Of a DNA stretch of 64,000 nt, positions 12,779 through 64,000 are shown one piece after another (the first letter of the stretch is position 1; every line of letters starts with the position of its first letter). The position numbers were made by a program, and so were the translations under genes. Under the pieces are notes generated by a model, which saw only the letters and a program-made list of their open reading frames with translations, was not told where the DNA came from and did not search any database. The stretch spans positions 186,001-250,000 of the forward strand of contig NZ_VIGW01000005.1 of the NCBI RefSeq assembly GCF_007858435.1, given 5' to 3'. This DNA is from Tsukamurella asaccharolytica. GTDB taxonomy: Bacteria; Actinomycetota; Actinomycetes; Mycobacteriales; Mycobacteriaceae.

Positions 12779-13741
12779 ATGGGGTCCATGGGGCCGGCCG
12801 AGGTGGTCCGGGCCGCCGCCATCGCGCGGCGGTTCTACTTCGACGGGAAGTCGAAGATGGAGATCGGGGCGGAGTACGGGCTCTCCCGGTACAAGGTGGC
12901 CAGGATTCTGGACGCCTGCCTCGAGTCGGGGCTGGTCCGGATAGAGATCAACACCGATGCGGCGATCGACGCGGACCTCTCGGAGCGGCTGCGCCGCGCC
13001 TACGGCCTGCGGCGCGCGCTCGTCGCCACCGGCTCCTTCACCGACTTCGACGGACTGCGCCACGGGCTCGGCCGGGTCGCGGCGGACCTGCTCAGCGAGG
13101 TGGTCACCGAATCGGACGTGCTCGGCGTGGGCTGGGGGCGCACCCTGGACGCGATGGCGCAGCACGTGCGGGACCTGCCGCCGTGCACGATCGTCCAGAT
13201 GTCCGGGGTGGTGGGTGACGTCCAGGCCAGCTCGGTCGACCTGGTGCGCCAGCTGACCTCCGTCTCGCGTGGGCCCCAGTACCCGATCTACGCGCCGCTG
13301 ATCATGTCGGACCAGCGGATGAAGGCGGCGCTCGCGCGGCAGCCCGGGGTCGCCACCGCGATGGAACTCTGGAAGCGGATCACGGTCGCCGTGGTGGCCG
13401 TCGGCAGCCTGGATCTGACGGGCTCGCAGGTGTACGCCATGTTGTCGGATCAGGGCCGGGCGGAACTGGATTCGCTCCACGTCGCCGCAGAGCTCTGCGC
13501 CATCCAGTTCGACGCCGCCGGGCGCCCGGTGCGCACGAACTACAGCGGTCGCACACTGGCCATCTCCTACCAGGAGCTGAGCGCCGTCGACGAGGTCATC
13601 GCCATCGCCGGCGGTCACCAGAAGGTGGAGGCCATCCGCGCGAGCCTGATCAGTGACGTCGTCACATCGTTGGTCACCGACCGGGAGACCGCCGTCTCGC
13701 TGCTGCGCGTCGCGCCGGACGAATCCACGGATCGCGCCTGA
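12779..13741 (+). CDS. SorC/CggR-type sugar-binding transcriptional regulator
   Basis: 320 residues. The N-terminal helix-turn-helix is at about 12-52 (FDGKSKMEIGAEYGLSRYKV as recognition region). It is followed by a SorC-type sugar-binding domain with the GVGWGRTLDAM segment near residue 118. SorC-family regulators, such as Bacillus CggR for gapA, respond to phosphorylated sugars. It lies between divergent pfkA and downstream gap, and both flanking gaps carry GCCCATATGGGC. The natural inference is that it senses a glycolytic phosphosugar and controls gap, itself and perhaps pfkA. Start: ATG with AGGAGG five bases upstream; a second ATG nine bases on is less well placed. Confidence 0.85.
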   Translation: MGSMGPAEVVRAAAIARRFYFDGKSKMEIGAEYGLSRYKVARILDACLESGLVRIEINTDAAIDADLSERLRRAYGLRRALVATGSFTDFDGLRHGLGRVAADLLSEVVTESDVLGVGWGRTLDAMAQHVRDLPPCTIVQMSGVVGDVQASSVDLVRQLTSVSRGPQYPIYAPLIMSDQRMKAALARQPGVATAMELWKRITVAVVAVGSLDLTGSQVYAMLSDQGRAELDSLHVAAELCAIQFDAAGRPVRTNYSGRTLAISYQELSAVDEVIAIAGGHQKVEAIRASLISDVVTSLVTDRETAVSLLRVAPDESTDRA

Positions 13742-13742
13742 T

Positions 13743-13754
13743 GCCCATATGGGC
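13743..13754. promoter_or_regulatory. Second copy of GCCCATATGGGC palindrome upstream of gap
   Basis: This perfect 12-bp palindrome begins two bases after the regulator stop. It is identical to the core of the 12689-12706 element. It is centred about 48 bases before the transcription start inferred from the TACGTT hexamer at 13785-13790. Confidence 0.65.
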
Positions 13755-13765
13755 GTGATGGTTGT

Positions 13766-13782
13766 CACCCCGATCCGGGGTG
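13766..13782. promoter_or_regulatory. Inverted repeat CACCCCG-atc-CGGGGTG in the gap promoter
   Basis: Seven-base perfect arms separated by three bases, lying just before the TACGTT box at 13785-13790. It overlaps the spacer of the presumed promoter, so bound protein would block RNA polymerase. It is different in sequence from the GCCCATATGGGC element. Confidence 0.5.
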
Positions 13783-13830
13783 CATACGTTCGGCTCGACA
13801 AACGTGATCCAGGTGCACCGGATCGGCTAA

Positions 13831-35545: not shown

Positions 35546-35565
35546 CGGTTACCCACGAGTAACCG
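35546..35565 (-). terminator. Hairpin at the end of the acyltransferase gene
   Basis: CGGTTAC-ccacga-GTAACCG, seven-base perfect arms, spans the TAA stop of the gene at 35549. No T-run, so termination would be partial or rho-dependent. Confidence 0.4.
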
Positions 35566-37009
35566 TCGCGTCGCCGATTTCGGTCAACAACGAACGTAGC
35601 GCGCCGAGGTACAGAGTGACACTCCGGCGTGCCGTGTCGAAGCCGGGGAAGCGCGCCGCCACGTGCAATCCGGACGGCGTGCGCAGCATCCAGAGGTAGA
35701 CGTCGTCGATCGAGTAGTCGCGCGAGCGCAGCGCCCCGGCACCGCCCGCGTCGTTGACGTCGGACCCGGGGGCGGACCGCGTGTCCATGAAGGACACCAC
35801 GAACCGCGGCGGCGGCGCCTGCGAGCGGCCCGGCTCATCGGCGAGCACCTCGCCGATGCGCAGGTAGGGCAGGGTGCTGCCGACCTTCGAGTGCTTCCAC
35901 GCCGCCTGCGAGCGTTGCGCCAGCTCGCCGAACGTGCGGGTGCCCGTGGTGTCCAGGCGGAAGGGCGCGACGCCGACGAACCAGCCCAGCGCCGCGATCC
36001 ACTGCTCGGCGTCGCGGGTGTGTCGGGTGACGGCGCACCGGAAGACCGGGCCGAAGCCCAGGTCGGTGTTGATCTTCGCCATGCACGCGAGCACGCCCGT
36101 CACCAGCGATGCCCCCGATTCCGAGCACACGCGGGTGAAGTTGTTGCACCGGTCGTCGTCGAGCAGGTGGAAGTTCAGGGCGCCCTGCACCAGGCGGGGC
36201 ACCCCGTCGGGGTCGGGGCTCAGGGCCGCCCGCGTCTCGTCGGCGAGCATCTTCGCGCTGACCGGCAGCAGCGGTAGGGGGAACGGGTCGGGCTTGAAGC
36301 CGGTCTCGCTCAGGTACTCGTCCCACATGCGCGCGGCCGGGTGGCTGGCATCGGCCCGGTCCGCCGACTGCCGATCGGTGTCCGAGTAGTTGACGTAGCT
36401 GCCCGCGGGCAGCAGCTTCGGCGGCTCGCCGTGCACGGCCTCGCGGTAGAAGGCGCGCAGCTCGTAGGGGCTGAGGATGAGGGAGTAGCCGTCGAGCAGC
36501 GAGTGGTCCGCGGCGAAGAACAGGGTGAACGAATCGTCCCGCGAGACCGTCGAGAACAGGTACGCGGGCCAGGTCAGCGGGGCCGTCGATCGGTCGAATT
36601 CACCCAGCAGCTGTTCGGCGAGGGGGCCGGTGGACCGGTACGTGCCGATCGCCTTGATCCTCAGGTCGACGGTGGCGGTCTGCGCGCTGCGCCGCCGCGG
36701 GCGGTCGTCCTCGAGGAAGACGTGCGTGCGCAGCACCTCGTGCCGGTCGATCCACGCGCGCAGAGCGCTGCGCAGGCCCGGGATGGACAGCGGCTCGTCG
36801 AATTCGACGGCGAGGCCGAGCCAGGACTCGCGGCCGCCGTCGATGTGCCGGCGGCGGAGCACCGCCTGCGCGCCCCGCAGGTGCGCCTCGTGCACGTGCG
36901 AGGTGTCCCGCGGGTCGTCGTGCCAGCGGGCGGCCGGGCCCGTGGTCGGGATCCAGTTGCGCAGTTCACCCGGGCGCAGCGGGTACGCATCGAGTTCGGT
37001 GAAGTGCAC
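35549..37009 (-). CDS. Condensation-domain acyltransferase, PapA1/PapA2-like
   Basis: 486 residues of the CoA-dependent acyltransferase superfamily. The catalytic motif HSLLDG is at residues 169-174 in FFAADHSLLDGYS. The acceptor-region sequences and a C-terminal TPSGLHVAARFPGFD segment resemble PapA-type enzymes that acylate trehalose in mycobacteria. No peptide carrier domain is attached. It lies between sufE and accA3. The GTG start (HFTELDAYPL) is chosen because PapA homology starts there; more upstream codons overlap sufE. It differs in subfamily from the acyltransferases at 38414-45607. Likely substrates are acyl-CoA or carrier-bound fatty acid and a sugar hydroxyl. Confidence 0.8.
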   Translation of the reverse strand: MHFTELDAYPLRPGELRNWIPTTGPAARWHDDPRDTSHVHEAHLRGAQAVLRRRHIDGGRESWLGLAVEFDEPLSIPGLRSALRAWIDRHEVLRTHVFLEDDRPRRRSAQTATVDLRIKAIGTYRSTGPLAEQLLGEFDRSTAPLTWPAYLFSTVSRDDSFTLFFAADHSLLDGYSLILSPYELRAFYREAVHGEPPKLLPAGSYVNYSDTDRQSADRADASHPAARMWDEYLSETGFKPDPFPLPLLPVSAKMLADETRAALSPDPDGVPRLVQGALNFHLLDDDRCNNFTRVCSESGASLVTGVLACMAKINTDLGFGPVFRCAVTRHTRDAEQWIAALGWFVGVAPFRLDTTGTRTFGELAQRSQAAWKHSKVGSTLPYLRIGEVLADEPGRSQAPPPRFVVSFMDTRSAPGSDVNDAGGAGALRSRDYSIDDVYLWMLRTPSGLHVAARFPGFDTARRSVTLYLGALRSLLTEIGDATVTRG

Positions 37010-37034: not shown

Positions 37035-37454
37035 CTACGCGGCGAGCCGGCGCTTGATGCGGGCGAGCATCGCCGACATGCCGCGCAGGCGCAGCGGGCT
37101 GACCACGGCATCGAGGCCGAGGGCGTGGTGGAAGTCCTCGGGCACGGCGAGGATCGCCGCGGCCGGCTGCCCGTCGAGCCCCTGCGCGAGGATCGACGCG
37201 AAGCCGCGGGTGGTCGGCGCCTCGGGCGGGGCGCTGAAGTACAGCAGGACCGCCTCGGGGTCGGCGGCATCGACGTCGAGGAACAGCGGGGATTGGCACT
37301 CCGGCACCGGCTCCATCGCCGCCGCCGTCAGGTGATCGGGCAACGCGGGGAGCTCCCGCGAGAACTCCAGCAGCAGTTCGAGCCGGTCCTGCTCACCGAC
37401 CCCGGCGAAGTCGTCGACGATCTCCTGGAGCGGCGCGGGAAGGCCGGCCGTCAT
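37035..37454 (-). CDS. SufE-family sulfur acceptor protein
   Basis: 139 residues. The conserved Cys53 in VPECQSPLF and the downstream [11 protein letters not shown] segment are diagnostic of SufE. SufE accepts persulfide sulfur from a cysteine desulfurase or sulfurtransferase. It overlaps the sseA stop by ATGA, as in M. tuberculosis (Rv3284/Rv3283), so a sulfurtransferase-acceptor pair is likely. Confidence 0.9.
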
Positions 37455-38344
37455 GCGCCCGGAACCGTGCCCGGCTCCTCGCCGCGGACGATGGGGGCGC
37501 GCACGGTGTTGCCCCACTCCGTCCAGGAGCCGTCGTAATTGCGCACGTCCGCGAAGCCGAGAAGGTGGGTGAGCACGAACCAGGTGTGGCTCGACCGCTC
37601 GCCGATGCGGCAGTACGCCGTCACGGGCGCCTTCGGGTCCAGGCCGCCGTACACCTCGAGGAGGTCTGCATGGGGGAGGAACCGGCCGTCCTGCCGGGCC
37701 GCCTTCGCCCACGGGATGGACACCGCCGTGGGGATGTGGCCGCCGCGCAGGGCGCCCTCGTCCGGGTAGTCGGGCATGTGGGTGCGCTCGCCGGTGTACT
37801 CCTGCGGCGACCGCACGTCGACGAGGGCGCGCGTGCCGATGTCGGCGCGGACCTCGTCGGCGAAGGCACGGATCACCGAGTCATCGCGCTCGACCACGGG
37901 GTAGTCGCTGCGCGGGTACTCCGGCTGTTCCAGGGAGACGTCGCGCGCGTCGCTGATCCACTTGTCGCGGCCGCCGTCGAGCAGCCGCACGTCCGGGTGC
38001 CCGAAGAGGGTGAAGACCCACAGCGCGTAGGCGGCCCACCAGTTCGACTTGTCGCCGTAGATCACGACGGTGTCGTCCCGGCTGATGCCCTTGGCGCGCA
38101 TCAGTTCCGCGAACTGCTCGCCGGTGATGTAGTCGCGCGTCACCGGATCGTTCAGGTGCAGGTGCCAGTCCACCTTCTGCGCCGTCGGGATGTGCCCGAT
38201 GTCGTAGAGGAGCACGTCCTCGTCGGACTCGATCACCTTCAGGCCGGGGACCCCCAGGTGCCCGCTCAGCCAGTCCGCGGTGACGAGGCGCTCGGGGTGT
38301 GCGTAGTCCTGCAGTTCCGCGCTCGGATCGGTCTCGATAGCCAC
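37451..38344 (-). CDS. sseA: Thiosulfate sulfurtransferase with two rhodanese domains
   Basis: 297 residues: an inactive N-terminal rhodanese domain (about 18-140) and a catalytic C-terminal one (about 155-285) with Cys245 in the active loop CRIGERS. The loop type indicates thiosulfate rather than mercaptopyruvate. It transfers sulfane sulfur to a thiophilic acceptor, plausibly the SufE-like protein encoded next. The GTG start lies seven bases after a TAGGCT box, so it can be transcribed separately from the acyltransferase genes upstream. Confidence 0.92.
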
Positions 38345-38413: not shown

Positions 38414-39703
38414 TCAGTGGTGGGCGTGCTCGGGGACCGACCGGTCGATCACGCCGCGCAGGTCCGCGGCCGACGCGAGGTTGCTCGCGACGAACAGCGA
38501 GGTCTCGGCCTCGGTGCCCGTCCACCCGACGTAGAGGTACGGCGGCCGCGGCGGCGCGATCCGGCCGGGCAGCGCGGACCATGCCAGGCGGAACCAGGTG
38601 CGGTCCGCGGGGGTGCCGTCGGGCGCGCGCACCGGCGCGGGCAGGGCACCGACGCCGGCGCAGGTGGTGACCGGGTGCGCCGGATCCGGCGGCGCGTCGA
38701 TGAGCGCGGCCAGGGTACGGCGCGGCAGCAGGGTCAGCAGCGGGCCGAAGGCGTCGTAGCGCCCGGCGTCCGGGAGTGCGCCCAGCACGGCCTTGACGTC
38801 CGCGCGCAGGGCCGCCACGCCCTCGGGGCCCGGCGCCGGATCGACGGGGAGCTCGGCGTCGACGATCGCATTGCCCCGCAGGTCGCCGTCCTCGCGCCGG
38901 TTCACGGACAGGCCGAGGACGGCCCGCCCGTCGGGCCGCACCCAGCCGAGGCCGGCGGCGATCCGTGCGGCGGCCTGGACCAGCAGGGTCGACTCGGTGC
39001 CGCCGGCCGCGGCCGCCCGCGCCCCGAGCGCCGTGCGGTCGAGGTGCGCGACGGCCCAGCGGTCGGGCCCGACGGGGTGCGCCGGCGCGGGGCCCGTCGA
39101 CCCGCCGCCGTCGTGCTCGAGGCGTCCCCGCGCGAGGCGGGTGGCCGTCGCCGCGGCCCGCACCGCGGCCGGCAGCTCCCGGGCGGCCCGGGCGGCGTCG
39201 CGACGGGCGGCGCGGAGGGGGGCCGCCGCCTCGCGCGGATAGGGCAGGTCGCGGGTAACGCCCAGCGCGGCCTCCGCGACGGCGGTCGCGGTGCCCACCC
39301 CGTCGGCGAGGACGTGCGAGACCACCAGGGTCACCGCGGACCCCCCGTCGGTCAGGGGCAGCACCCCGAGGTGCCACCCCGGCCCCGACCAGGGATCGAT
39401 CGGCGCGGCGGCGCGTTCGTCGAGCCAGTCGTCGATCGCCGTGCGGGGCCGCGGTGCGGCCTCGACGGCGACCCGCGGCGCCGCGGTGGTGGCCACCCAG
39501 CGATCCCGGCCGAAGGGCAGCGGCGAGTGGGCGATCCGGCGGCCCAGCAGGCCGCTGGTGAGCGCGTCGCGGAAGCGGTCGAGACCGGCGAGCGCGACGC
39601 CGTCGTCGTAGATCCAGGTCACCTGGATGAGCGAGTTACGGCCGGTCGCGCGGGTGCCCGAGGCCGCGCCCTGGTCGACGAAGGCCAGCAGATCGGGCGT
39701 CAC
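38414..39703 (-). CDS. Condensation-domain-like acyltransferase (divergent member of the block)
   Basis: 429 residues. HVLADG at 130-135 is the catalytic HxxxDG. The rest differs from the neighbouring acyltransferases: it lacks SNLG and TFxGRL and instead ends with PPYLYVGWTGTEAETSLFV, closer to wax-ester/diacylglycerol acyltransferase style than PapA5 style. It probably transfers a fatty acyl group to a hydroxyl. The GTG start overlaps the stop of the gene at 39700 (GTGA), so it is translationally coupled to the end of the block. Very Ala/Arg-rich. Confidence 0.72.
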   Translation of the reverse strand: MTPDLLAFVDQGAASGTRATGRNSLIQVTWIYDDGVALAGLDRFRDALTSGLLGRRIAHSPLPFGRDRWVATTAAPRVAVEAAPRPRTAIDDWLDERAAAPIDPWSGPGWHLGVLPLTDGGSAVTLVVSHVLADGVGTATAVAEAALGVTRDLPYPREAAAPLRAARRDAARAARELPAAVRAAATATRLARGRLEHDGGGSTGPAPAHPVGPDRWAVAHLDRTALGARAAAAGGTESTLLVQAAARIAAGLGWVRPDGRAVLGLSVNRREDGDLRGNAIVDAELPVDPAPGPEGVAALRADVKAVLGALPDAGRYDAFGPLLTLLPRRTLAALIDAPPDPAHPVTTCAGVGALPAPVRAPDGTPADRTWFRLAWSALPGRIAPPRPPYLYVGWTGTEAETSLFVASNLASAADLRGVIDRSVPEHAHH

Positions 39704-40947
39704 GCGGCGGCTCCCGCCCCGATGAGGCCGGAGGCGATCCGGTCCCGGATGCGGCGGGCGGCGTCGGGCGCGAGGGTGCCCGGCGCGTGCCGCAGCTCGA
39801 TCGACAACCGGCCGTCGAAGGTGAGCGCGTGATGGTGCAGGCCGACCAGCGGCGCCAGCGCCTCGGGCGGCGCGTGCCGCACCAGGGCCCGGACCCGCTC
39901 GATGTCGACCTCGGAGCTCGTGTGGAAGTCGAGCGCCGTGACACCGTCCGGGGTCGACGGGGCCGGGATCGCCCCGATGTTGCTCAGCCGCACGGGGACC
40001 CCGCCGGTGACGGTCACCGGGGCGGCGCCCGCCAGCGCCGCGGCGACGGTGCCGTCGGCGAGGTCGGCGCGCAGCCCCGCGAGGACCGCGCGGCCGATGT
40101 CCTCGGGGGGCGTGTCGCCGCGCACGGCGACCGGCACCGTCGACGACCCCGCGAAGTTGGTGACCGCGGCCGCCGGGACGGCGGGCTCGGCGCGGGCCCG
40201 CAGGTCGACGGGGCTGAAGACCGCGAGCGGCACGGGCTCGTCCGCGGGACGGTCGAGCTCGGCGCGCTCGGCGGCGACGATGATCCCGGCGAGGAGCCCG
40301 TGCACGCTCAGGCCCGCCTCCTTGGCGCGCCGGCGCACCGCCTCGGTCGCCCCGGCATCGAGCCGGATCCGGTCGAAGGCGAAGTCGCCGGCGTCGACGT
40401 CGGCCGGGGAGGGCACCGTCGCGGTGGAAACGACGTCGACGACGGACGGCGCGGGCGGCGCTCCCGCCGCGAGGCGGTCCGCCAGCTCGGTCGGGGCGGC
40501 GGGGAGCCCGGCCGGCGCGGCGGCCTCCGCGCCGGAGTACAGCTCCCACAGGCGCAGATTCAGGAACAGGGCGTGGGCCCCGTCGGCGACGGCGTGGCTC
40601 ACCCCGAGCGTGACGCGGTGCAGGTCCCCGTCGGAGACGAGCTGCACCGCCGCGATCGCCGCGTCGGCGTCGACGCCGAGCCGCACGTCGCCGGGCGCGA
40701 AGGCGCGCAGCTCGACCTGGATCGGCGCGGTGGCCTCGTCGGGCCCGGCGTCGGGCGCGATCAGGTCGAAGCCGTGGTCGTGCGCCTCGATCCGGCCCGC
40801 GAGCACGGGGTGTTCGCGGCGGAGGTCGGCGTACGCGCGGGCCAGGCGGCCCGCGTCCATCGGGCCGCGGACGGTGAAGCTGCCGCTCGAGGTGGTCCCC
40901 GTGAGCACGTAGGGGATCTCGAGCGGGGTCAGGGCGCGTCGGGACAT
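39700..40947 (-). CDS. Condensation-domain acyltransferase, PapA5-like
   Basis: 415 residues. HAVADG (118-123), the RLSNIG segment and TFDGRLSIEL near the C-terminus define the same subfamily as the genes at 43037 and 44366. This subfamily includes PapA5, which esterifies phthiocerol hydroxyls. No carrier domain. It is followed by an overlapping acyltransferase and preceded two bases upstream by the glycosyltransferase stop. Predicted to acylate a sugar or glycolipid. Confidence 0.8.
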   Translation of the reverse strand: MSRRALTPLEIPYVLTGTTSSGSFTVRGPMDAGRLARAYADLRREHPVLAGRIEAHDHGFDLIAPDAGPDEATAPIQVELRAFAPGDVRLGVDADAAIAAVQLVSDGDLHRVTLGVSHAVADGAHALFLNLRLWELYSGAEAAAPAGLPAAPTELADRLAAGAPPAPSVVDVVSTATVPSPADVDAGDFAFDRIRLDAGATEAVRRRAKEAGLSVHGLLAGIIVAAERAELDRPADEPVPLAVFSPVDLRARAEPAVPAAAVTNFAGSSTVPVAVRGDTPPEDIGRAVLAGLRADLADGTVAAALAGAAPVTVTGGVPVRLSNIGAIPAPSTPDGVTALDFHTSSEVDIERVRALVRHAPPEALAPLVGLHHHALTFDGRLSIELRHAPGTLAPDAARRIRDRIASGLIGAGAAA

Positions 40948-40948
40948 C

Positions 40949-42331
40949 TCACACCTCCAGTCCGGCGAGGGAGGCCACGTCGGCGGCGTCGAAGTCGACG
41001 GTGTCCGGCGCCCGCACCGCCGCGACGGTCCGCACGTTCACGCCGTCGTCCTCGGCGATCGATTCGATGATCGTCGCCGCGCGGCGGGCGGGGATGTCGC
41101 CGAGGTCGATCAGCGACGCGATGCGCTGCGCGCGGCGGCGGGTGGCCGGATCGAGCAGTAGGTCGAACGCCGTGTGCAGGCGCTCGGCCGTGACACTGCG
41201 CATCGGCAGGCAGGCCCCGATCCCGAGGTCGGTGACCCGCGCCCCCCAGAAGGGCTGGTCCGCGAGCACGGGGCAGATGAGCGTGGGCAGGCCGGCGCGC
41301 AGCGACGCGGCGGTGGTGCCGGCCCCGCCGTGGTGGACGGCGGCGGCGCAGTGCGGCAGCACCTCGGCGTGCACCACCTCGTCGACGACCCGGACGTGGT
41401 CGCCGAGGTCGGCTCCCACCAGATCGCTCCAGCCGGCGACGATCAGGCCGCGGCGTCCCCGCTCCGCGCAGACCCGGGCGAACGTGCGCGCCATACCGTC
41501 CGGGTCGGCGATGCGCATGCTGCCGAAGCCCCAGTAGATCGGGGCGTCGCCGTCCGCGAGCCACGCCATGAGATCGGCGTCCGTGCGCTTCTGCTCGCCC
41601 TGGCGCAGCCAGGCGTCCGCGGGCACCTCGAGGAAGCCGAGCATCGGCCGGGTGCGGCTGAACTCGGGGACCAGGTCCGGGGTCAGGGCGGGATCGTAGA
41701 GCTGCAGGTCGACGATCTCGTCGGCGTCGCGGTTCTTCGCGCGCCGCGACCGGTACGGCGCCTCGCCGACCGACATCCGGTGGAAGTTCACCGCCGCCCG
41801 CACGTGGGTCCAGGTGAAGGAATCGCCGAGGGCCCACGTCGCGCGCTTGACCATCCGCGGCGACCGGGACAGGACATCGCTGGTCAGACCTGCGGGGGTG
41901 TACTGCGTCATCGGGTAGACGCTGTTGGTGGTGCCGGGGAAGAACCGGTAGCTGATGATCGTCGCGCCGCTGCGACGGGTGATGGGCAGCGCGAAATCCA
42001 CGGCGTCCGAGTGCGTCAGCACCACGTCGGCGTCGCGGCACGCGACCTCGGTCTCGCGGGAGATGGTCGCGATGTTGCGCACCAGCCAGCGACCGTAGGC
42101 CCGCATCCGCTCGACCGGCCGGTGGATGACGTCGCGGTAGTCGTCGTCGTAGTCGGGCACGAAGTCGTTGAGCCGGTGCGCCGCCAGGCCCGCCGAACGG
42201 ATGAGGCGCACCAGCGGATCGCCCATCGCGGCGATGGTCACGTCGTGCCCACGGGCGCGGAGCGCCAGCCCGATCGCGATCGTCGGCTGGACATCGCCGC
42301 GGCTCCCCATGGCGAGGATGCAGACCTTCAT
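40949..42331 (-). CDS. GT1-family glycosyltransferase (UGT/GPL Gtf-like)
   Basis: 460 residues with two Rossmann domains. The N-terminal VCILAMGSRGDVQPTIAIG is the acceptor-domain opening of the sterol/glycopeptidolipid Gtf group. The C-terminal HHGGAGTTAASLRAGLP followed by PVLADQPFW is the nucleotide-sugar-binding signature. Relatives glycosylate lipids (GPL rhamnosyl- and talosyltransferases, sterol glucosyltransferases). Standing inside a block of acyltransferases, it most likely attaches a sugar that is then acylated. ATG start one base after the membrane protein's stop. Confidence 0.88.
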   Translation of the reverse strand: MKVCILAMGSRGDVQPTIAIGLALRARGHDVTIAAMGDPLVRLIRSAGLAAHRLNDFVPDYDDDYRDVIHRPVERMRAYGRWLVRNIATISRETEVACRDADVVLTHSDAVDFALPITRRSGATIISYRFFPGTTNSVYPMTQYTPAGLTSDVLSRSPRMVKRATWALGDSFTWTHVRAAVNFHRMSVGEAPYRSRRAKNRDADEIVDLQLYDPALTPDLVPEFSRTRPMLGFLEVPADAWLRQGEQKRTDADLMAWLADGDAPIYWGFGSMRIADPDGMARTFARVCAERGRRGLIVAGWSDLVGADLGDHVRVVDEVVHAEVLPHCAAAVHHGGAGTTAASLRAGLPTLICPVLADQPFWGARVTDLGIGACLPMRSVTAERLHTAFDLLLDPATRRRAQRIASLIDLGDIPARRAATIIESIAEDDGVNVRTVAAVRAPDTVDFDAADVASLAGLEV

Positions 42332-42332
42332 G

Positions 42333-43040
42333 TCAATTCGTCCTTTCGACGGTCGGGAGGAGCTCGGTCCGGGACGCCCGGTCGGGCGCCTCGTCGGCGC
42401 TGCCGGCGAGTGCGGCCCGGACGGGGCGCAGGAGCAGCAGGGTGAGCGGCAGCACCGGGACGGCGACCAGCAGGGGGATGACCTGGCACGCGACGACCGC
42501 GTAGTCGATCGGCAGGCTCACCGCCGCCGTGAGCGAGGCGGCGGTGCTGACGGCGACGGCGGCGAGCCAGAGGGGATCGACGACGCCGATCGCCCGGACG
42601 CACCGGCGTTCGGTGCGGACGCTGTGGTTCCACCGCTGGGCCCGCGCGGCGTCGCCGCGCACGGTCAGCCGCATCATCAGCGTCGCGACGGCCCGCCGGC
42701 GCAGCACCAGCCCGGCGGCGATGGCGACGGCCATGAGCGCGCCGATCGCCGTCTCCACCAGGAGGATCACGCGGGGGCTGCCCGTGATCGCGGCCGCGGT
42801 GATCGACGACGCGAGGAGGGTGAGGGTGAACAGCTCGAGCGGGTCGACCGCGCGGCGCACCAGCGAGCGGGTCAGGATCCGGAGCGCGACCAGGGTGGTA
42901 CCGGTGACGAGGGCGATCAGCTGACCCACACCGAACAGGTAGCGCAGCGCGAAGTACACGCCCAGCTGCAGCCCGACGTCGACGAGCAGCGCCACCGGCG
43001 GGGCGGGCGGCGACTCGGTATCGGCGAGAGGGACCGTCAT
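42333..43040 (-). CDS. Polytopic membrane protein, possibly VC0807-like
   Basis: 235 residues with about five to six hydrophobic helices in two groups. The first group lies near residues 17-36, 40-55, 67-86 and 93-112. A basic cytosolic loop with WNHSVRTERRC follows. The second group lies near 152-172 and 180-206. The layout and the loop recall VC0807-type proteins of unknown function. It is not an acyltransferase, so it may move or anchor the lipid product. It overlaps the acyltransferase upstream (ATGA) and precedes the glycosyltransferase by one base. Confidence 0.7.
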   Translation of the reverse strand: MTVPLADTESPPAPPVALLVDVGLQLGVYFALRYLFGVGQLIALVTGTTLVALRILTRSLVRRAVDPLELFTLTLLASSITAAAITGSPRVILLVETAIGALMAVAIAAGLVLRRRAVATLMMRLTVRGDAARAQRWNHSVRTERRCVRAIGVVDPLWLAAVAVSTAASLTAAVSLPIDYAVVACQVIPLLVAVPVLPLTLLLLRPVRAALAGSADEAPDRASRTELLPTVERTN

Positions 43041-44323
43041 GCGGCGGCGCCGATCTCGAGCAGCGCGTGCGCACCGTCGGTGATGCGGTCGAGGAGTCGC
43101 AGGCGAGTCTCCGCATCGAGCGTGCCGGGCAGGGCGCGCAGCTCGATCGAGAGGCGCCCGCCGAAGGTGGAGACGAGATAGGAGGTGCCGATCGGCGCGG
43201 CCGGGGCGCCGGGCCCGGTGTGGCCGGCGGCGTACTCGCGAAGACCGCCGGCGCTGCGGATGATCTGCGCGTGGAAGTCGAGGACCTCGAGCCCGGCGGG
43301 CACGTCGGGCTCCGCGACGGGGCCGAGGTTGCTGATGAGGACGGGCGGGCCGTGGCGGCGGGTCCGCGGGTCGGGCATCGGGCTCACGGCGGTCCGCAGG
43401 ACGGTGCCGTCGCGCACGTCCGCGCGGATCCTCTCGGCCACCGTCCGGGCGATCTCGGGGGTGGGGGCGTCGCCGACGGCGACGTAGGAGAAGCCGCAGA
43501 GCGCGGTCACCGATCGCAGCGGGATCGGCGGCGTGATCCGGGCGCGGAAGTCGACCGGAGTCAGCAGGGCCACCGTCGCGTTCTCGGCGCACTCGGCGAG
43601 CTCGGCGCGGGCGATGAGGCCGCTGACCAGCGCGTGCGAGGAGACGTCGTGGCCGCGGGCGGCGGCCTCCAGCGCCGTGGTCTCGCCGGCCGTGAACCGG
43701 GCCCGCAGCACGTCGTCGACGTCGGGGCCGGGATCGTCCGGGAACTCCGCCGGTACCGCGCCGTGCCAGACGGTGCCTGCCAGCCGCTCCTCGTAGTCGA
43801 GCTCCTCCGGGAGGTGCCCGCGCGCCGCCATCACCAGGTGCGGCTCGGCCGGGAAATCCTTGGCGCGCCGGATGATCGGAGTCGCGCCGCTCGCCAGTGC
43901 GGTGTACAGCTCGAACAGCCGGGCGGCGATCGCGACGATGCCGGAGCCGTCCGTCGCGGCGTGACTGGCCCACAGGGTGAGCCGGTGCCGCTCGCCGATC
44001 CCGATGAGCGAGAGTGCCGCCAACTGCTCGGAGCCGACGAACCACGGCGGCGCCTGCTCGTACCCGGTCCACGGGGCGGTGCTCTCGTGGAAGCCGATCG
44101 CCGAGGCCACGGCGGCGTCGCCCGGCGCGAAGTGGGGGCGGCCGGCGATCTCCACGATCCGCGCCGCGAGCACGGGGTACTCCTCCAGCAGGGCGGTGAA
44201 GGCCGACCGGAGCGCGGTGCCGTCGACGACGCCCCGCAGCTCGAACGACGTGCCGATCACCTCGCGCGAGGTCGGCCGCACGAACGAGGCCTCGGAGAAG
44301 GTGAGTGCGCGGTGGTACTGCAT
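43037..44323 (-). CDS. Condensation-domain acyltransferase, PapA5-like
   Basis: 428 residues. HAATDG at 121-126, VLISNLGP, and STFGGRLSIEL near the C-terminus place it with its two sister genes. The first Ala-rich 40 residues resemble the N-terminal strand-helix of PapA5. The gene overlaps the membrane-protein gene by four bases and is 42 bases downstream of the first acyltransferase. Probably acts on a different hydroxyl or with a different acyl donor than its neighbours. Confidence 0.8.
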   Translation of the reverse strand: MQYHRALTFSEASFVRPTSREVIGTSFELRGVVDGTALRSAFTALLEEYPVLAARIVEIAGRPHFAPGDAAVASAIGFHESTAPWTGYEQAPPWFVGSEQLAALSLIGIGERHRLTLWASHAATDGSGIVAIAARLFELYTALASGATPIIRRAKDFPAEPHLVMAARGHLPEELDYEERLAGTVWHGAVPAEFPDDPGPDVDDVLRARFTAGETTALEAAARGHDVSSHALVSGLIARAELAECAENATVALLTPVDFRARITPPIPLRSVTALCGFSYVAVGDAPTPEIARTVAERIRADVRDGTVLRTAVSPMPDPRTRRHGPPVLISNLGPVAEPDVPAGLEVLDFHAQIIRSAGGLREYAAGHTGPGAPAAPIGTSYLVSTFGGRLSIELRALPGTLDAETRLRLLDRITDGAHALLEIGAAA

Positions 44324-44365
44324 GTGCGGCTCCTGTTCTGGACGGGTGGCGGCGGCGGGCGGGCG

Positions 44366-45607
44366 TCAGGCCGCGGGTGCCCGGCGGGCCGCGGCGTGGA
44401 CGAGGGTGTCGATGCGGTCGGCGACGGCGGCGCGGGCCTGTGCGGAGGCCGTGCCGCCCAGCGTGATCGCCTCGATGCCGAGCCGGCCGCGGAAGGTCGA
44501 GACCTGGTGGATCGTGGCCGACGGAGCGGGGCGCCGCGGCCCGGCGGGCACGTGGAGCCCCACGGAGTCCATGGACAGCACGGGCCGCAGGTCCTCCGCG
44601 ACGAGGCCGTCGGGCAGCTCCACGGCGAGCGGTCCGAGGTTGCTGAGCACCACGGGCGGCTCGGATGCCTCACCCGGCGCGGCGGCGACGGCGAGGGCCG
44701 TGAGCGCTCGACCGCCCCGGACGTCGCGGCGGACCGTCCGGGCGAGCTCGTCGCCGACGGTCGCAGGGTCGGAGTCGGAGGTGAGCTCGGGGGCCGCGTA
44801 CGAGGCACCGACGAAGTTGGTCACCTCGGTGGGGTCGAGCAGCGGGCGCACCCGGCGCCGCAGGTCGACGAGCGTCATCGCGCCGATCCGGACGGGCGCC
44901 GCCGGATCCTCGTCGACGAAGCCGGCTCGTTCGGCGGTGAGCAGGATCCCGGAGAGCAGGGCGTTCAGGCCGACGCCCTCGGCGGCGGCGAGCAGCCCCG
45001 CGGTGGTGTCGGCCGAGAAGCGCAGCGAGGTCGTCTCGGGAAGCGTCGCGTCCGCGCCGCGCGGGCCCGAGGTGGGCGCGCTGCCGTACCACCGCGCGCC
45101 GTCGAGCCGGGCCCGGCCGGTGCTGACCTTGGGGACGTCGAGGTCGGCGAGGATCCGCTGCGCCGAGCGGGGAAAGGGCTGCGGCGCCGCGAGCTCCGTC
45201 GAGCCGGTGGCGACCAGTGCGCCGTAGTGCGACCAGAGCCGGCGCAGGAGGGCGTACAGGTGGGTGCCGTCGGCGAGCGCGTGGTTGACCGCGAGCGCGA
45301 CGCGGTGCCGGTCGCCGAGCGGGACGACCTGCAGGCGGGCGAGCGCCGCCGCGGGATCGACCAGCGGTGCCCCCGGACCGGCGGTGACGGTGGCGCCGCC
45401 GGCGGGCGCGACGAAGGCGTAGCCGTCGCCGGTGGACGCGACGGCGGCGTCGAGCGCGGGGTGCTCGGCACGCAGCGCGGCGAAGGCGTCGTCCAGGGCA
45501 TCGGTGTCCAGCGGGCCGCGCACGGTCAGTTCGAAGGCGCACGTGGTGGGGTACGGGCCCACGAAGCCGATCTCGGAGGAGGCGAGGGGGCGGAGCGTCG
45601 TGGTCAT
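44366..45607 (-). CDS. Condensation-domain acyltransferase, PapA5-like (first gene of the block)
   Basis: 413 residues. HALADG at 109-114, VVLSNLGP and STFRGRLGIEA near the C-terminus. It opens the acyltransferase/glycosyltransferase block after a 262-base gap that holds a candidate promoter. The ATG lies six bases after TAGCGT, supporting both start and promoter. Low-complexity Ala/Arg regions are at the ends only. Confidence 0.8.
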   Translation of the reverse strand: MTTTLRPLASSEIGFVGPYPTTCAFELTVRGPLDTDALDDAFAALRAEHPALDAAVASTGDGYAFVAPAGGATVTAGPGAPLVDPAAALARLQVVPLGDRHRVALAVNHALADGTHLYALLRRLWSHYGALVATGSTELAAPQPFPRSAQRILADLDVPKVSTGRARLDGARWYGSAPTSGPRGADATLPETTSLRFSADTTAGLLAAAEGVGLNALLSGILLTAERAGFVDEDPAAPVRIGAMTLVDLRRRVRPLLDPTEVTNFVGASYAAPELTSDSDPATVGDELARTVRRDVRGGRALTALAVAAAPGEASEPPVVLSNLGPLAVELPDGLVAEDLRPVLSMDSVGLHVPAGPRRPAPSATIHQVSTFRGRLGIEAITLGGTASAQARAAVADRIDTLVHAAARRAPAA

Positions 45608-45869
45608 GGGATGACGCTAAGACGGCGTGCATTCCCTTCGCGAGACGAACGAGCGGTGTTGCTCGTCACGCTCCCGGACTCTTGACCAGGGTTGGCGAAG
45701 GGCGCGAAGGACGGATGGTCCGATGTTCTTGCAGCGTGAACGGCATATGCGAGGAAAGCCTCGATTGCGGTTCTCAGCTGGGGAAACGTGCAGATCGCGC
45801 GGATTTAACGCGATGCTTACGAAAGTTCGTCCCCCGGTCCTGTGAGGTCCACCACGTCCGAGACGGGGG
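45608..45869 (-). promoter_or_regulatory. Intergenic region with candidate promoter (TAGCGT at 45614-45619)
   Basis: No gene is seen in these 262 bases. TAGCGT lies six bases before the ATG at 45607. An ACGAGC-ggtgtt-GCTCGT inverted repeat at 45649-45666 is centred near -50 relative to the presumed start, an operator-like position. Composition is somewhat less GC-rich than the flanking genes. Confidence 0.4.
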
Positions 45870-46508
45870 TCAGACCCGATCCGGCCACAGCGCGACGGGG
45901 GAGACGCCGAGCTCGCCCAGCAGGTGCCGGGTCAGCGGGAGGGAGATACCGATGACCGAGCTGGGGTCGCCGTCGATGCCCTCGACGAACCAGCCGCCGA
46001 GGCCGTCGAGAGTGAAGGCGCCGGCCACCTGCAGGGGCTCGCCCGTCGCGACGTAGGCGTCGATCTCCTCCTCCGAGGGTGCGCCGAAGCGCAGCGTCGT
46101 CGACCCGGTGCCGCCGGACTCGCCGGCCACGGCACCGTCGTCGAGGAGGATCGCGCAGTGCCCTGTCAGGAGGCGGCCCGTGCGGCCGCGCATCGCCCGC
46201 CAGCGCGCCGCCGCGACCTCGGGGGTGTGCGGTTTGCCGACGAGCTCGCCGTCGATGGACAGCATCGAATCGCAGCCGATCACCACGGCCCGGCCCGGCA
46301 GCGGCTCCTCCGCGCGGATCCGCTCGACCACGTCACGCGCCTTCGCCCGCGCCAGCGCCGCGACGGCGTCCTCATGCGCGACATCGGGCCCCAGCTCGGC
46401 GAGGATCGCGTCCTCGTCGACCTGCGAGACCGAGACCAGCGGCGACGTGCCCGCGGCGCGCAGCACCGAGAGCCGCGCCGGCGACGCCGACGCGAGCACG
46501 AGCCGCAC
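45870..46508 (-). CDS. maf: Maf-family nucleotide pyrophosphatase
   Basis: 212 residues. The N-terminal LASASPARL (residues 5-13) is the Maf signature. Acidic catalytic segments, including GCDSML and VDED-type residues, follow. Maf proteins hydrolyse non-canonical or canonical nucleoside triphosphates and affect division in some bacteria. It follows accE5 by 11 bases in the carboxylase run, the same order as M. tuberculosis Rv3280-3282. The GTG start fixes the family N-terminus. Confidence 0.9.
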   Translation of the reverse strand: MRLVLASASPARLSVLRAAGTSPLVSVSQVDEDAILAELGPDVAHEDAVAALARAKARDVVERIRAEEPLPGRAVVIGCDSMLSIDGELVGKPHTPEVAAARWRAMRGRTGRLLTGHCAILLDDGAVAGESGGTGSTTLRFGAPSEEEIDAYVATGEPLQVAGAFTLDGLGGWFVEGIDGDPSSVIGISLPLTRHLLGELGVSPVALWPDRV

Positions 46509-46519
46509 GGGAGCGGGAA

Positions 46520-46771
46520 TCAGGTCCCCTTGGTCCAGAAGAGCGGCGTCTGGCTGGTGAAGGCGTTGGGGCCGTTGAAGTACAGCGGACGCATCCGGTC
46601 GCGGACATCGCCCCACAGCGACGTCGGGCCCTCCGGCCCGGTCTGCGGCGCCGAGCCGGTGGCCGCGGCGAGCACCGCGACGACGGCGGCGACGTCCGTG
46701 TCCGACGGGTTGCCCCGCTCGAACCGGATGGTCGCCCTGAGCTTCTCGACGTCGGCGGGGTTCGGAGTCAC
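46520..46771 (-). CDS. accE5: Acyl-CoA carboxylase epsilon subunit
   Basis: 83 residues from the GTG with a GGAG ribosome site (93 from an alternative GTG overlapping the accD5 stop). The conserved IRFERGNPSDTDVAAVVAVL helix matches the AccE signature RGNP-DEE-AALVAVL. AccE stabilises and activates AccA3-AccD5 in mycobacteria. The remainder, with TSLWGDVRDRMRP, is short: M. tuberculosis AccE5 is longer at its N-terminus, which here is nearly absent. Confidence 0.85.
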   Translation of the reverse strand: MTPNPADVEKLRATIRFERGNPSDTDVAAVVAVLAAATGSAPQTGPEGPTSLWGDVRDRMRPLYFNGPNAFTSQTPLFWTKGT

Positions 46772-61262: not shown

Positions 61263-62063
61263 GTGGCTGACTTCCTGCGGTACGTGGCGCTCGGGGACTC
61301 CTTCACGGAAGGCGTCGGCGATCCCGATCCGACGGGGACGCACGAGTACCGGGGCTGGTCCGACCGCGTGGCCGAGGTGCTGGCTGCGCGCTCGCCCGAG
61401 TTCGGCTACGCGAACCTGGCGATCCGCGGCAAGAAGATGGACCAGATCGTCGCCGAGCAGGTGGAGCCGTGCCTGGAGCTGGCCCCGGATCTGGTCACCG
61501 TGTACGCGGGCGCCAACGACCTCATCCGGCCGTCGGTCGACGTCGACGCCGTGGTCGAGGCCTATGACGCGATGCTGGGTCGGCTCGTCGACTCCGGCGC
61601 GACCGTCGTGGTGTGGACGGCCGCCGACACGCACGGCAGCGGGATCTTCGGCGCGCTCCGCGGACGCTTCGCGATCTACAACGAACTGGTCCGCGAGATC
61701 GCGTCCGACCGGGGGCTCGTGCTACTCGACTACTGGCGGCTCAAGGAGTACCGCGACCTGCGGATGTGGGAGTTCGACCGCATCCACATGTCGCAGCCCG
61801 GACACCTGCGGATGGCGATCGAGGTGCTCGACGTGCTGGGCGTTCCGCATTCACTCGTGGCGGACGATCTCGGGCCCGAGCCGGTGATCACGCCGGCGGA
61901 GGATCGCGAGATCAAGAGGAAGTGGCGGCGCGAATTCGCCTACCCGTGGGTCTCGCGCCGCCTGCGCGGCATCTCCACCGGCGACGGCCTGCCGCCGAAG
62001 TACCCGACGCTGATGCGACCGGCGGGGGTGGACGTGTCGGAGGCCGTAGGCGACGGGTCCTGA
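61263..62063 (+). CDS. SGNH/GDSL-family hydrolase
   Basis: 266 residues. Block I GDSFTEG (11-17, nucleophile Ser13), block III GAND (83-86) and a C-terminal DRIHMSQPGH with the catalytic Asp/His pair. No signal peptide, so a cytosolic esterase or deacylase. AGGAG ribosome site before the GTG. It follows manB by 11 bases, ending the rmlD-wbbL-manB operon, so a role on a sugar or lipid ester is plausible but unproven. The last 40 residues are a basic extension with no motif. Confidence 0.88.
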   Translation: MADFLRYVALGDSFTEGVGDPDPTGTHEYRGWSDRVAEVLAARSPEFGYANLAIRGKKMDQIVAEQVEPCLELAPDLVTVYAGANDLIRPSVDVDAVVEAYDAMLGRLVDSGATVVVWTAADTHGSGIFGALRGRFAIYNELVREIASDRGLVLLDYWRLKEYRDLRMWEFDRIHMSQPGHLRMAIEVLDVLGVPHSLVADDLGPEPVITPAEDREIKRKWRREFAYPWVSRRLRGISTGDGLPPKYPTLMRPAGVDVSEAVGDGS

Positions 62064-62590
62064 TCTACGCCGGAGTAGTCAGGGCTGGTCGTTGCTGGTC
62101 GTGGCCAAGCAATACACGGATGCCAGAGGGTTGCGCCCTGTCATCCATTCAGATGGTTGATCGATTCGTTGTAGTCAACAACACTGATCACGTGAATTTG
62201 TCTCTGTCTGTACGTCGCAGCCGTCGCATCGGAGCTGTTATTTTGCGGGCCATTTCCGCTGGAGCTATGAAATATTGATTAACTGACTGATTCTCGCTGG
62301 GAGGCCGTGGAGAGGGCCGAGTGCCCTTCCGTATCCGCGTTGTGGATGAGGGCTGGAATTCTGAAATTGGCCTGCGCGGATAGTCCGGGCGCCTGCTGCT
62401 GCAGTACTTGGCGCTGACGTCGTCTAGCGCGGCGGCGACAGAGTTTCGTCGATGGGTTTCGCGCGTGGTGCGCGGGTGGTGGTTACAGACCGCGTTCTGT
62501 CATCCGATCAGACGATTGTTCGGTTGTGCAGGATCGATGAGGCTGGTCCGGTGAAGTGTGTGTGGATGGCCTCTGTGATGGGGAGTGCCC
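62064..62590. other. 527-base intergenic region of lower GC, no gene supported
   Basis: I find no convincing coding frame. Base composition falls to near even GC/AT around 62160-62290, unlike the rest of the window. Small symmetric features include AGGG-ttgcg-CCCT (62127-62139) and a GTTG-tagt-CAAC pair near 62170. It may mark an insertion boundary before the transporter gene. Confidence 0.5.
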
Positions 62591-64000
62591 GTGAGCGGTG
62601 ATGAGCCCAAGTTGATGCGGTTCGATCCGGCCGCCGGGGCGTACGTGCCTAACGGGCCGGCGCAATCCCACGGGAGTGTGTATCCGCAGGCAGAGCCCGA
62701 GGCTCGCTCTCAGCCCGGTGAGCCTCGGACGCAGCGTATTCAGGCGGGACCGGCGATGCAGCAGCGTCCTGTGCGGCCGTCCCCGCCGGTGCGGGCAGCC
62801 CCACCCGAGCGTCTGCCAGTACCGCCGAGAACCGGACCGGCGCCGTCGAGGGGGACTCGTCCGATGCCTCCGGTAGGGCGTCCCTTCGTGCAGCAACCGC
62901 AGGTGCAGAGACTGCCGGCGCCGCGTCCCCCACTGCCCGCCTACGCGCCGGCATCCGCGGGCGGGGCGGGTTCCCCGAGTGCCGCGCGCTCGGGAAGGGA
63001 CGGCGGATCGGCGCGCGCGCCGCGCGAAGGCGGCCCGTGGCCTGAGTTCCTGGCGAGCACGTTCGGATGGTTCGACCTCTTCCTGTACGGCACGCTAACC
63101 GCGCTCGTGTTCCCCAGCGTGTTCTTCCCTTTTGCGGAGGACTTGGTGCTCGCCACGGCGATGACCTATCTCGTGCCGTTCCTGGTGCGGCCCGTCGGCG
63201 GGCTGTTCTTCGGGCACATCGGTGACGTGCGCGGGCGCCGATATGCGACCGCGCTGGCATTGGCGATCCTCGCAGTCGCCACGATGCTGATGGCGTTGGT
63301 TCCCTCGTACTCCACGATTGGAATCGCTGCACCGGTGATCGTGCTGCTGTTGCGCATGGTGCAGATGGCTGCCATAGGTGGGCTTTCGGTCGGGGCGTCG
63401 GTGAACGCTGCGGAACGAGCACCCGCACGGTTTCGAGGCATGTGGTCAGCCCTCTCTCAGTCTGGTCTGGCCGCGGGCAGCGCGGCGGCGAGCGCCGCTG
63501 TGTTGGTTCCTACCGTGATCCTCCCGGAGGGCATCTTCGCCGAGTGGGTCTGGCGTGCGGTAGTACTGCTCGGCGCTGGTCTTTCCGTCGTTCTCGCACT
63601 CGTGCTGCCGAGGATCGTTGATGAGTCGCCAGTCTTCCGAGATCGTCGCAGCATTGCCGATCGAGCGGATTTCGGAGCGGGATTCGCGGGCATCTTCGAT
63701 TCCGGCTGGCGTGGTGTTCTGTACGGAGCGGGTCTGCGATTCGGTGAATCGGTGTTCCTGTTCTTCCTGCTCGGCTTCGCCTTGGTTTTCGCAGGTCCTG
63801 GATGGTCGGAAACCAGATGGGTCCTGCTGTTCGCGGCGGTGCTGCACTGCGGGTTCATCATCGGTGCGGGGGCGGCCTCGGACAGGATTGGGCGGCGGCC
63901 TGTTCTGGCGGCAGGAATCGGACTGTCGGTCGTCTGGGCGCTCGTCGCCTTCCCTGTGCTGCTGTCAGGTAGCCTCACCGCGTTTACGCTGGTGATTGTC
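62591..64000 (+). CDS. Partial MFS transporter, metabolite:H+ symporter (MHS) type, with long disordered N-terminus
   Basis: 470 codons in the window; the stop is beyond the right edge. The first 145 or so residues are Pro/Gln/Arg-rich with no structure (repeated PQ, RP, PPR segments). From about 150 there are MFS helices: STFGWFDLFLYG starts TM1 in the style of the MHS family (FDFFLYG), GHIGDVRGRRYATALALAI is the motif A loop after TM2, and later helices continue to the edge. MHS members import shikimate, betaine, dicarboxylates and similar with protons. GTG start with GGGGAG six bases upstream. Third-base use is less GC-biased than in neighbours, suggesting transfer. Confidence 0.82.
   Translation, partial: MSGDEPKLMRFDPAAGAYVPNGPAQSHGSVYPQAEPEARSQPGEPRTQRIQAGPAMQQRPVRPSPPVRAAPPERLPVPPRTGPAPSRGTRPMPPVGRPFVQQPQVQRLPAPRPPLPAYAPASAGGAGSPSAARSGRDGGSARAPREGGPWPEFLASTFGWFDLFLYGTLTALVFPSVFFPFAEDLVLATAMTYLVPFLVRPVGGLFFGHIGDVRGRRYATALALAILAVATMLMALVPSYSTIGIAAPVIVLLLRMVQMAAIGGLSVGASVNAAERAPARFRGMWSALSQSGLAAGSAAASAAVLVPTVILPEGIFAEWVWRAVVLLGAGLSVVLALVLPRIVDESPVFRDRRSIADRADFGAGFAGIFDSGWRGVLYGAGLRFGESVFLFFLLGFALVFAGPGWSETRWVLLFAAVLHCGFIIGAGAASDRIGRRPVLAAGIGLSVVWALVAFPVLLSGSLTAFTLVIV

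Follow-up and report, generated by a model that had tools for sequence, protein, structure and literature searches.

A candidate acylated-glycolipid operon with PapA5-type acyltransferases, a glycosyltransferase and a VC0807-family membrane protein at the maf-sseA site of Tsukamurella

The mycobacterial clusters for sulfolipid-1, for diacyl- and polyacyltrehaloses and for phthiocerol dimycocerosates (the PapA5 system) combine PapA-superfamily acyltransferases carrying the HxxxDG motif with polyketide synthases (PKSs), FadD and MmpL proteins, and glycopeptidolipid clusters bring GT1 glycosyltransferases and acyltransferases together. Here we analyse a 64,000-nucleotide stretch of the genome of Tsukamurella asaccharolytica (contig NZ_VIGW01000005.1, forward-strand positions 186,001 to 250,000; hereafter the window), from a genus of soil and clinical bacteria, in which six genes between maf and sseA encode four acyltransferases (AT1 to AT4), a glycosyltransferase (GT) and a membrane protein (TM). 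Like the PapA clusters, this block contains PapA-superfamily acyltransferases with HxxxDG. However, it is devoid of PKS, FadD and MmpL, carries a GT1-type enzyme and a VC0807-family membrane protein at its centre, and combines three PapA5-type acyltransferases with the divergent AT4; MmpS/MmpL genes lie beside the version of the block present in Segniliparus rotundus. Relatives of the GT at about 30% are found on plasmid records of Mycobacterium avium/intracellulare, but in contrast to glycopeptidolipid clusters the block has no non-ribosomal peptide synthetase (NRPS), a single GT and several PapA5-type acyltransferases.

In the available part of a review (PMC4365757), T. tyrosinosolvens DSM 44370 is described as making tri- and tetrasaccharide lipids in which two sugars each bear two C8-C10 chains, giving four acyl groups. 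Trehalose diesters are listed there for four species, T. pulmonis, T. spumae, T. pseudospumae and T. tyrosinosolvens, and the strains named include DSM 44113; assignment of DSM 44113 and 44114 to T. spumae and of DSM 44117 to T. pseudospumae follows from our reading of a flattened table row, and for DSM 44113 the genome record agrees with it. The listing agrees with the trehalose and oligosaccharide glycolipids which the first-pass annotation, made from sequence without database searches, had attributed to the genus. An extra sugar on a trehalose core together with four acyl groups, as the accessible text gives for the tri- and tetrasaccharide lipids (PMC4365757), would match one GT and four acyltransferases. 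The Rhodococcus succinoyl trehalose lipid pathway (TlsA) shares with the pathway proposed below the acylation of trehalose. Rhodococcus sp. I2R has a cluster of three papA3 genes and one papA1; the part of that paper available to us mentions glycosyltransferases only as scattered over contigs, with none in the papA cluster, and does not mention VC0807 (PMC8396431). Di- and oligosaccharide lipids from Tsukamurella have been described as biosurfactants; among the listings, abstracts and passages searched in one open-access library, no paper assigning genes to them was found. PapA-type assembly of glycolipids is in itself known; the list of parts met here is unusual and recurs.

Our analysis suggests, with a probability of about 0.8, that the block is an acylated-glycolipid operon. 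Because the GT, the VC0807 protein and three to four acyltransferases recur as a unit without a PKS, a single pathway adding several acyl groups to a glycosylated core is indicated, and a trisaccharide bearing four acyl chains would suit a complement of one GT and four acyltransferases. Assignment of the product to the four-acyl tri- and tetrasaccharide lipids of the T. tyrosinosolvens type is tentative, and we put it at somewhat less than even odds. We infer the specific product, the substrates, the order of the steps, the membrane coupling and the co-transcription as follows. The block would assemble a multiply acylated oligosaccharide lipid without a PKS. The VC0807 protein would keep the GT at the membrane, where the enzyme would transfer a hexose onto a small sugar core, with trehalose the most likely one, and AT1, AT2, AT3 and AT4 would then attach up to four acyl groups from acyl-CoA. 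Simple trehalose diesters would be made independently of the block, probably by a fifth acyltransferase located outside it (AT5). If this proposal is true, the block provides the first genes for the oligosaccharide class, the diesters are assigned to AT5 and a function is offered for the VC0807 family. A multiply acylated glycolipid had been proposed from the window before; it remains the simplest explanation for a GT and PapA-type acyltransferases in a tight block without PKS, and the recurrence of the unit in other genera adds to it.

The six tightly packed minus-strand genes are transcribed in the order AT1, AT2, TM, GT, AT3, AT4 (Table 1; genes were called with a home-made, non-standard annotator). 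Their earlier description as mostly overlapping was slightly loose, as only two of the five junctions overlap (by 4 nt each), while two are spaced by 1 nt and one by 42 nt. The dN/dS values of the six genes lie between 0.06 and 0.41 (three pairwise comparisons, simple method). Taken with the preservation of gene order in 11 of 16 Tsukamurella genomes, these values argue that the block is not a product of chance. Selection is tightest on GT (0.06-0.10) and loosest on AT1 (0.22-0.41), which could mean that the sugar transfer is fixed while acylation has more freedom. The block thus looks operon-like, with co-transcription suggested by gene spacing, constant order and shared fate. No PKS, NRPS, trehalose-making gene, acyl activator or exporter is present within the six-gene block, and promoter, terminator and Rfam scans found nothing. 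Elsewhere in the same genome there are another GT1 relative (L250), another PapA2-like gene (L251) and two other PapA_C genes (L134, L135); no further block-type gene was found among the called genes of the 14-18 kb stretches in which they lie.

All four acyltransferases contain the HxxxDG motif, as had been noticed from the sequence. AT1, AT2 and AT3 match PapA_C (PF16911) with 144.1, 165.3 and 189.1 bits, respectively, against a gathering score of 30, and PapA5 (1q9j) is the sole sequence match of AT1 in the PDB (E 1.4e-20). However, the best score of the three proteins against the PapA5 models NF006787 to NF006790 is 170.2 bits, below the curated cut-off of 396, and they are therefore relatives of PapA5 and not PapA5 itself. 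Residues H109, D113, G114, S322, F372, R375 and L376 are invariant in 15 AT1, AT2 and AT3 proteins from five species, and N323 is nearly so; this conservation bears out the observation that SN(L/I)G and TFxGRL are common to three of the acyltransferases and that the fourth differs. This fourth protein, AT4, has no Pfam match at E values up to 10, hence no PapA_C domain, and scores only 13.6 bits against the wax ester synthase/diacylglycerol acyltransferase (WS/DGAT) family TIGR02946 (cut-off 309.95). Its predicted model shows a two-domain fold of the condensation/WS-DGAT/PapA type with HxxxDG, and H130, D134 and G135 are invariant across 13 sequences. Orthologues of AT1 are 63-88% identical in the 10 other Tsukamurella genomes with an intact block and 56% identical in the contig-broken genome G007; in G009 the first HxxxDG-like string of AT1 is a chance occurrence and HALADG comes after it.

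The GT is above the Pfam cut-offs for PF06722 (72 against 31.7 bits) and PF00201 (24.2 against 19.5 bits), and thus has a C-terminal domain of the GT1 type, the type named in the first-pass annotation. Its matches in the PDB are the antibiotic glycosyltransferases GtfA/GtfB and sterol glucosyltransferases, and it is 87-97% identical across the 10 other intact-block genomes of the genus. The TM protein passes the cut-off of the VC0807 family (NCBIfam NF041646) with 86.1 against 65 bits; it has no PDB match at E <= 0.001 and its fold model is of low confidence (pLDDT 69.2). In genome G153, TM and GT lie in a single open frame (L254:9270-11366) of about 700 codons without an intervening stop, the front part of which is over the VC0807 cut-off while the rear matches the GT models; the GT part opens with a GTG that might still be used for production of the GT by itself. 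This fused frame suggests that both proteins may work together at the membrane. No paper naming the VC0807 family was found in the open-access library searched, and its placement in such a block, with a frame fused to a glycosyltransferase, is apparently new, as far as we are aware.

The distribution of the block was followed in 16 Tsukamurella genomes, that of T. asaccharolytica included. Eleven contain the six genes in identical order between maf and sseA, among them T. tyrosinosolvens NCTC13231, T. paurometabola (G010) and T. pseudospumae (G001); G005 is at zero distance from NCTC13231 in the block tree and was counted once together with it. In genome G007, whose pieces are excluded from the 11 intact blocks, two contig ends carry parts of the block, AT4 with AT3 on the first and AT2 with AT1 on the second; genes are incomplete there and at other locus ends. 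In T. sp. 8F (G008) and T. spumae DSM 44113 (G012, locus L140) the site is empty, with maf and sseA about 320 bp and about 100 bp apart, and both retain the carboxylase genes. In T. spumae DSM 44113 neither PapA_C nor AT4 gave a match and GT matches reach 34% at most, and AT5 is kept at 87%. A different island occupies the site in G014 (L108:3744-12507) and in T. sp. PLM1 (G015, L109:3624-12455). As searched on G014, it holds an AT2-like gene, three condensation-domain genes, a GDSL lipase, a major facilitator superfamily transporter and a gene of 444 aa without Pfam match; the island genes of the two genomes are 69-86% alike, although the flank tree does not place their hosts as sisters. In that tree the basal position in Tsukamurella is taken by G007 together with G008. 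Because the basal genome G007 carries pieces of the block, the block is about as old as the genus, with later loss or replacement, and a recent horizontal insertion into Tsukamurella is rejected on the same ground.

Two peculiarities of the records were met in this set. In T. sp. PLM1 (L109), accD5 is split over two called frames and the sufE frame is short (789-2443 and 13522-13803); both features may be sequencing errors (completeness of G015 is 83). Since accA3, accD5 and purE are present on the T. tyrosinosolvens record L228 (NZ_LR134451.1), this record is probably a chromosomal contig in spite of its name, 'plasmid 9'.

Outside the genus, the maf and sseA matches are separated by about 35 bp in L191 (Mycobacterium) and by about 73 bp in L202 (Mycolicibacter). 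These near-contiguous pairs are in favour of the first-pass view that the block is an insertion into a conserved neighbourhood; against it, the distance is about 3.3 kb in Mycolicibacterium (L187) and L196 has no sseA match within 10 kb. If an insertion, it is one of about the age of the genus and not a recent event. The interval is short in, for example, G021, G024, G026 and G027. In Williamsia muralis, G031 and Williamsia sp. CHRR-6 (L116, L117, L118) it holds larger clusters resembling glycolipid clusters, with GT1, AT4-like, PapA2-like and ABC-transporter-like genes (families searched on W. muralis), and a GT2-like gene in addition in the two Williamsia. A record titled Kitasatospora arboriphila (L198, NZ_JNYV01000009.1) shows an arrangement like that of W. 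muralis and is probably mislabelled or contaminated. In G036 (L119, L120) NRPS genes oriented against the flanking genes fill the interval, with the condensation, AMP-binding and carrier domains shown in L119.

At E <= 1e-75, the GT is found in 16 of 401 genomes of the family, namely 11 Tsukamurella, S. rotundus (G022), G153, G399, G062 and G244, the last two at 37-39%. G153, from the genus of Williamsia sp. CHRR-6, has AT1, AT2, TM, GT, AT3 and AT4 in order at a different location, and G399, from another genus, has AT1, AT2, TM, GT (82-83%) and AT3. Both units lie near PRC-barrel/DUF2382 and transglycosylase-associated genes. G399 falls inside Tsukamurella in the block tree, with a support of 0.999 for its grouping with the clade of G009, G010 and G013 (0.661 for its closer placement), and it has therefore likely acquired the unit by horizontal transfer out of Tsukamurella. 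In S. rotundus (parts read by tblastn and plain open reading frames), GT (54%), MmpL, MmpS and a hydrolase are on one strand, and four tandem PapA_C (PapA5-like) acyltransferases followed by a VC0807 protein are on the other; a long gene resembling those for fatty acid synthases or PKSs, in which ketoacyl-synthase and acyltransferase domains are found, starts about 6.5 kb past the VC0807 gene. The membrane proteins of S. rotundus, G399 and G153 all pass the VC0807 cut-off. A second genome of the S. rotundus genus has a GT of only 31%. The proportion of C10:0 in the fatty acids of S. rotundus is 21% and is called taxon-specific in the accessible part of its description (PMC3035277), which fits medium-chain acyl groups as a weak hint, far from proof. 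It is conceivable, although unlikely in our judgement, that the unit moves as a whole between genera of mycolic-acid bacteria and serves, independently of any PKS, to make oligosaccharide lipids with four acyl chains, possibly of medium length, and that the VC0807 protein is a membrane subunit of a lipid glycosyltransferase, to which the fused TM-GT frame would point.

For the oligosaccharide lipid as product, T. tyrosinosolvens has both block and reported lipid, and T. spumae has neither the block nor, in the accessible listing, any reported lipid other than diesters. T. spumae, T. pseudospumae and T. tyrosinosolvens make a ready natural test set. Several observations weigh against this product. 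The block was seen in strain NCTC13231 and the reported producer is a different strain, DSM 44370. T. pseudospumae has an intact block and is listed, in the part of the review available, with trehalose diesters only; as it stands this is a mismatch, although strains and media differed and the work may not have looked for oligosaccharide lipids. Making a tetrasaccharide would take two sugar transfers, but only one GT is encoded in the block. The sequence gives no indication of the sugar acceptor, and the block has no trehalose-making gene, acyl activator or exporter. Among the other genera, S. rotundus has no AT4 match, and the locus of G399 has only three acyltransferases, AT4 being missing there, with weak AT4 relatives elsewhere in the genome. 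Finally, the identity of the maf-AT1 intergenic region to ten species is 56-78%, no higher than that of the third codon positions of AT1 (56-76%; five species compared).

The strongest alternative, which we likewise put at somewhat less than even odds, is that the block makes another multiply acylated envelope glycolipid, such as an acylated glycoside whose acceptor is a lipid, a polyol or a sterol-like or terpenoid compound, or else an undescribed acylated disaccharide. GT1 enzymes act on many acceptors, and the antibiotic and sterol glycosyltransferases among the solved relatives of the GT are in line with this, as are the block of T. pseudospumae, for which the available listing has no oligosaccharide lipids, and the MmpS/MmpL genes next to the S. 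rotundus version, which point to some envelope lipid. However, no aglycone-making gene is present within the block or in the versions of G153, G399 and S. rotundus, and three to four acyltransferases per GT would suit a sugar-rich acceptor better than a mono-glycoside.

It is also possible, but improbable, that the neighbouring acyl-CoA carboxylase genes are tied to the block through malonyl- or methylmalonyl-derived chains and that its location was selected. The PapA2-like, AT4-like and GT genes in the maf-sseA interval of W. muralis, G031 and Williamsia sp. CHRR-6 would agree with a selected location. However, the unit of G153, G399 and S. rotundus is located elsewhere, and the carboxylase genes persist in the block-less T. 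spumae and T. sp. 8F, so that a permissive site is the simpler explanation.

It is very improbable that the block is responsible for the ordinary trehalose diesters of Tsukamurella. In favour of this reading, acyltransferases of the PapA superfamily acylate trehalose in mycobacteria. Diesters are also listed for four Tsukamurella species (PMC4365757, available part). However, T. spumae DSM 44113, a producer in this listing, lacks the block, any PapA_C or AT4 match and a GT above 34%; the diesters therefore do not need the block, diester synthesis as its job is rejected, and the plain trehalose-lipid interpretation in the earlier annotation falls with it. AT5 is the better candidate for the diesters because the block-less T. 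spumae keeps it and all 16 genomes of the genus have it, and diesters would require no extra GT. Least credible of all is an accidental neighbourhood of separately used acyltransferases, for which the faster evolution of AT1 relative to GT and the missing AT4 at the G399 locus could be cited, but which disagrees with the tight junctions, the constant order in the genus, the joint absence from T. spumae DSM 44113 of the block members of all four acyltransferase families and GT, the movement of the unit as a whole and the fused TM-GT frame.

Table 1. Features of the block and its flanks; positions are those of the window.
Feature	Position	Strand	Remarks
AT1, PapA5-type acyltransferase, first block gene	44366..45607	-	413 aa, HALADG; PF16911 PapA_C E 5e-42
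AT2, PapA5-type acyltransferase	43037..44323	-	428 aa, HAATDG; PF16911 E 1.6e-48
TM, VC0807-family membrane protein	42333..43040	-	235 aa; NF041646 E 2.2e-24
GT, GT1-type glycosyltransferase	40949..42331	-	460 aa; PF06722 E 6.7e-20, PF00201
AT3, PapA5-type acyltransferase	39700..40947	-	415 aa, HAVADG; PF16911 E 8.4e-56
AT4, divergent WS/DGAT-like acyltransferase, condensation fold	38414..39703	-	429 aa, HVLADG, GTG start
maf, upstream flank	45870..46508	-	PF02545 E 7e-47 (run on longer frame 45870-46616)
maf-AT1 intergenic region, candidate promoter region	45608..45869	-	262 bp; alignment of 11 block-bearing species
sseA-like sulfurtransferase, downstream flank	37451..38344	-	PF00581 E 1.1e-31; 69 nt after AT4
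AT5, PapA1/2/3-type acyltransferase, outside block	35549..37009	-	486 aa, HSLLDG; PF00668 E 4.5e-20

The region between maf and AT1 contains short invariant runs, for example at 45810-45805, 45669-45663 and 45644-45637 (invariant columns counted in 11 of 12 rows, G007 excluded). Conservation of this region as proof of a promoter was rejected, since its identity does not exceed that of the AT1 third codon positions given above. No sigma-70-like match was found in it, and a regulon search of the same genome with a pattern from the AT1 upstream region gave a single match, its own site. In T. pseudospumae there are about 650 additional bases between AT1 and maf (L096:8774-9684), with the part adjacent to AT1 retained.

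AT5 was overlooked in the first-pass inventory, which was incomplete in this respect. It is a PapA2-like acyltransferase located beyond sseA and a sufE-like gene and before accA3. Its best match in the PDB is the trehalose-2-sulfate acyltransferase PapA2 (6aef, E 1.7e-29), with residues 16-483 aligned to residues 7-461 of the latter, and it is a candidate for the trehalose-diester acyltransferase. The AT5 values in our identity table come in many rows from partial genes at locus ends, and those of G014 and G015 (33%) are island paralogues; the AT5 values used here were taken from a separate comparison. Relatives of AT5 occupy the corresponding place in some related genera. At the far end of the window, positions 62001-64000 have a lower GC content (0.648) and a strong AT skew (-0.27) compared with the rest.

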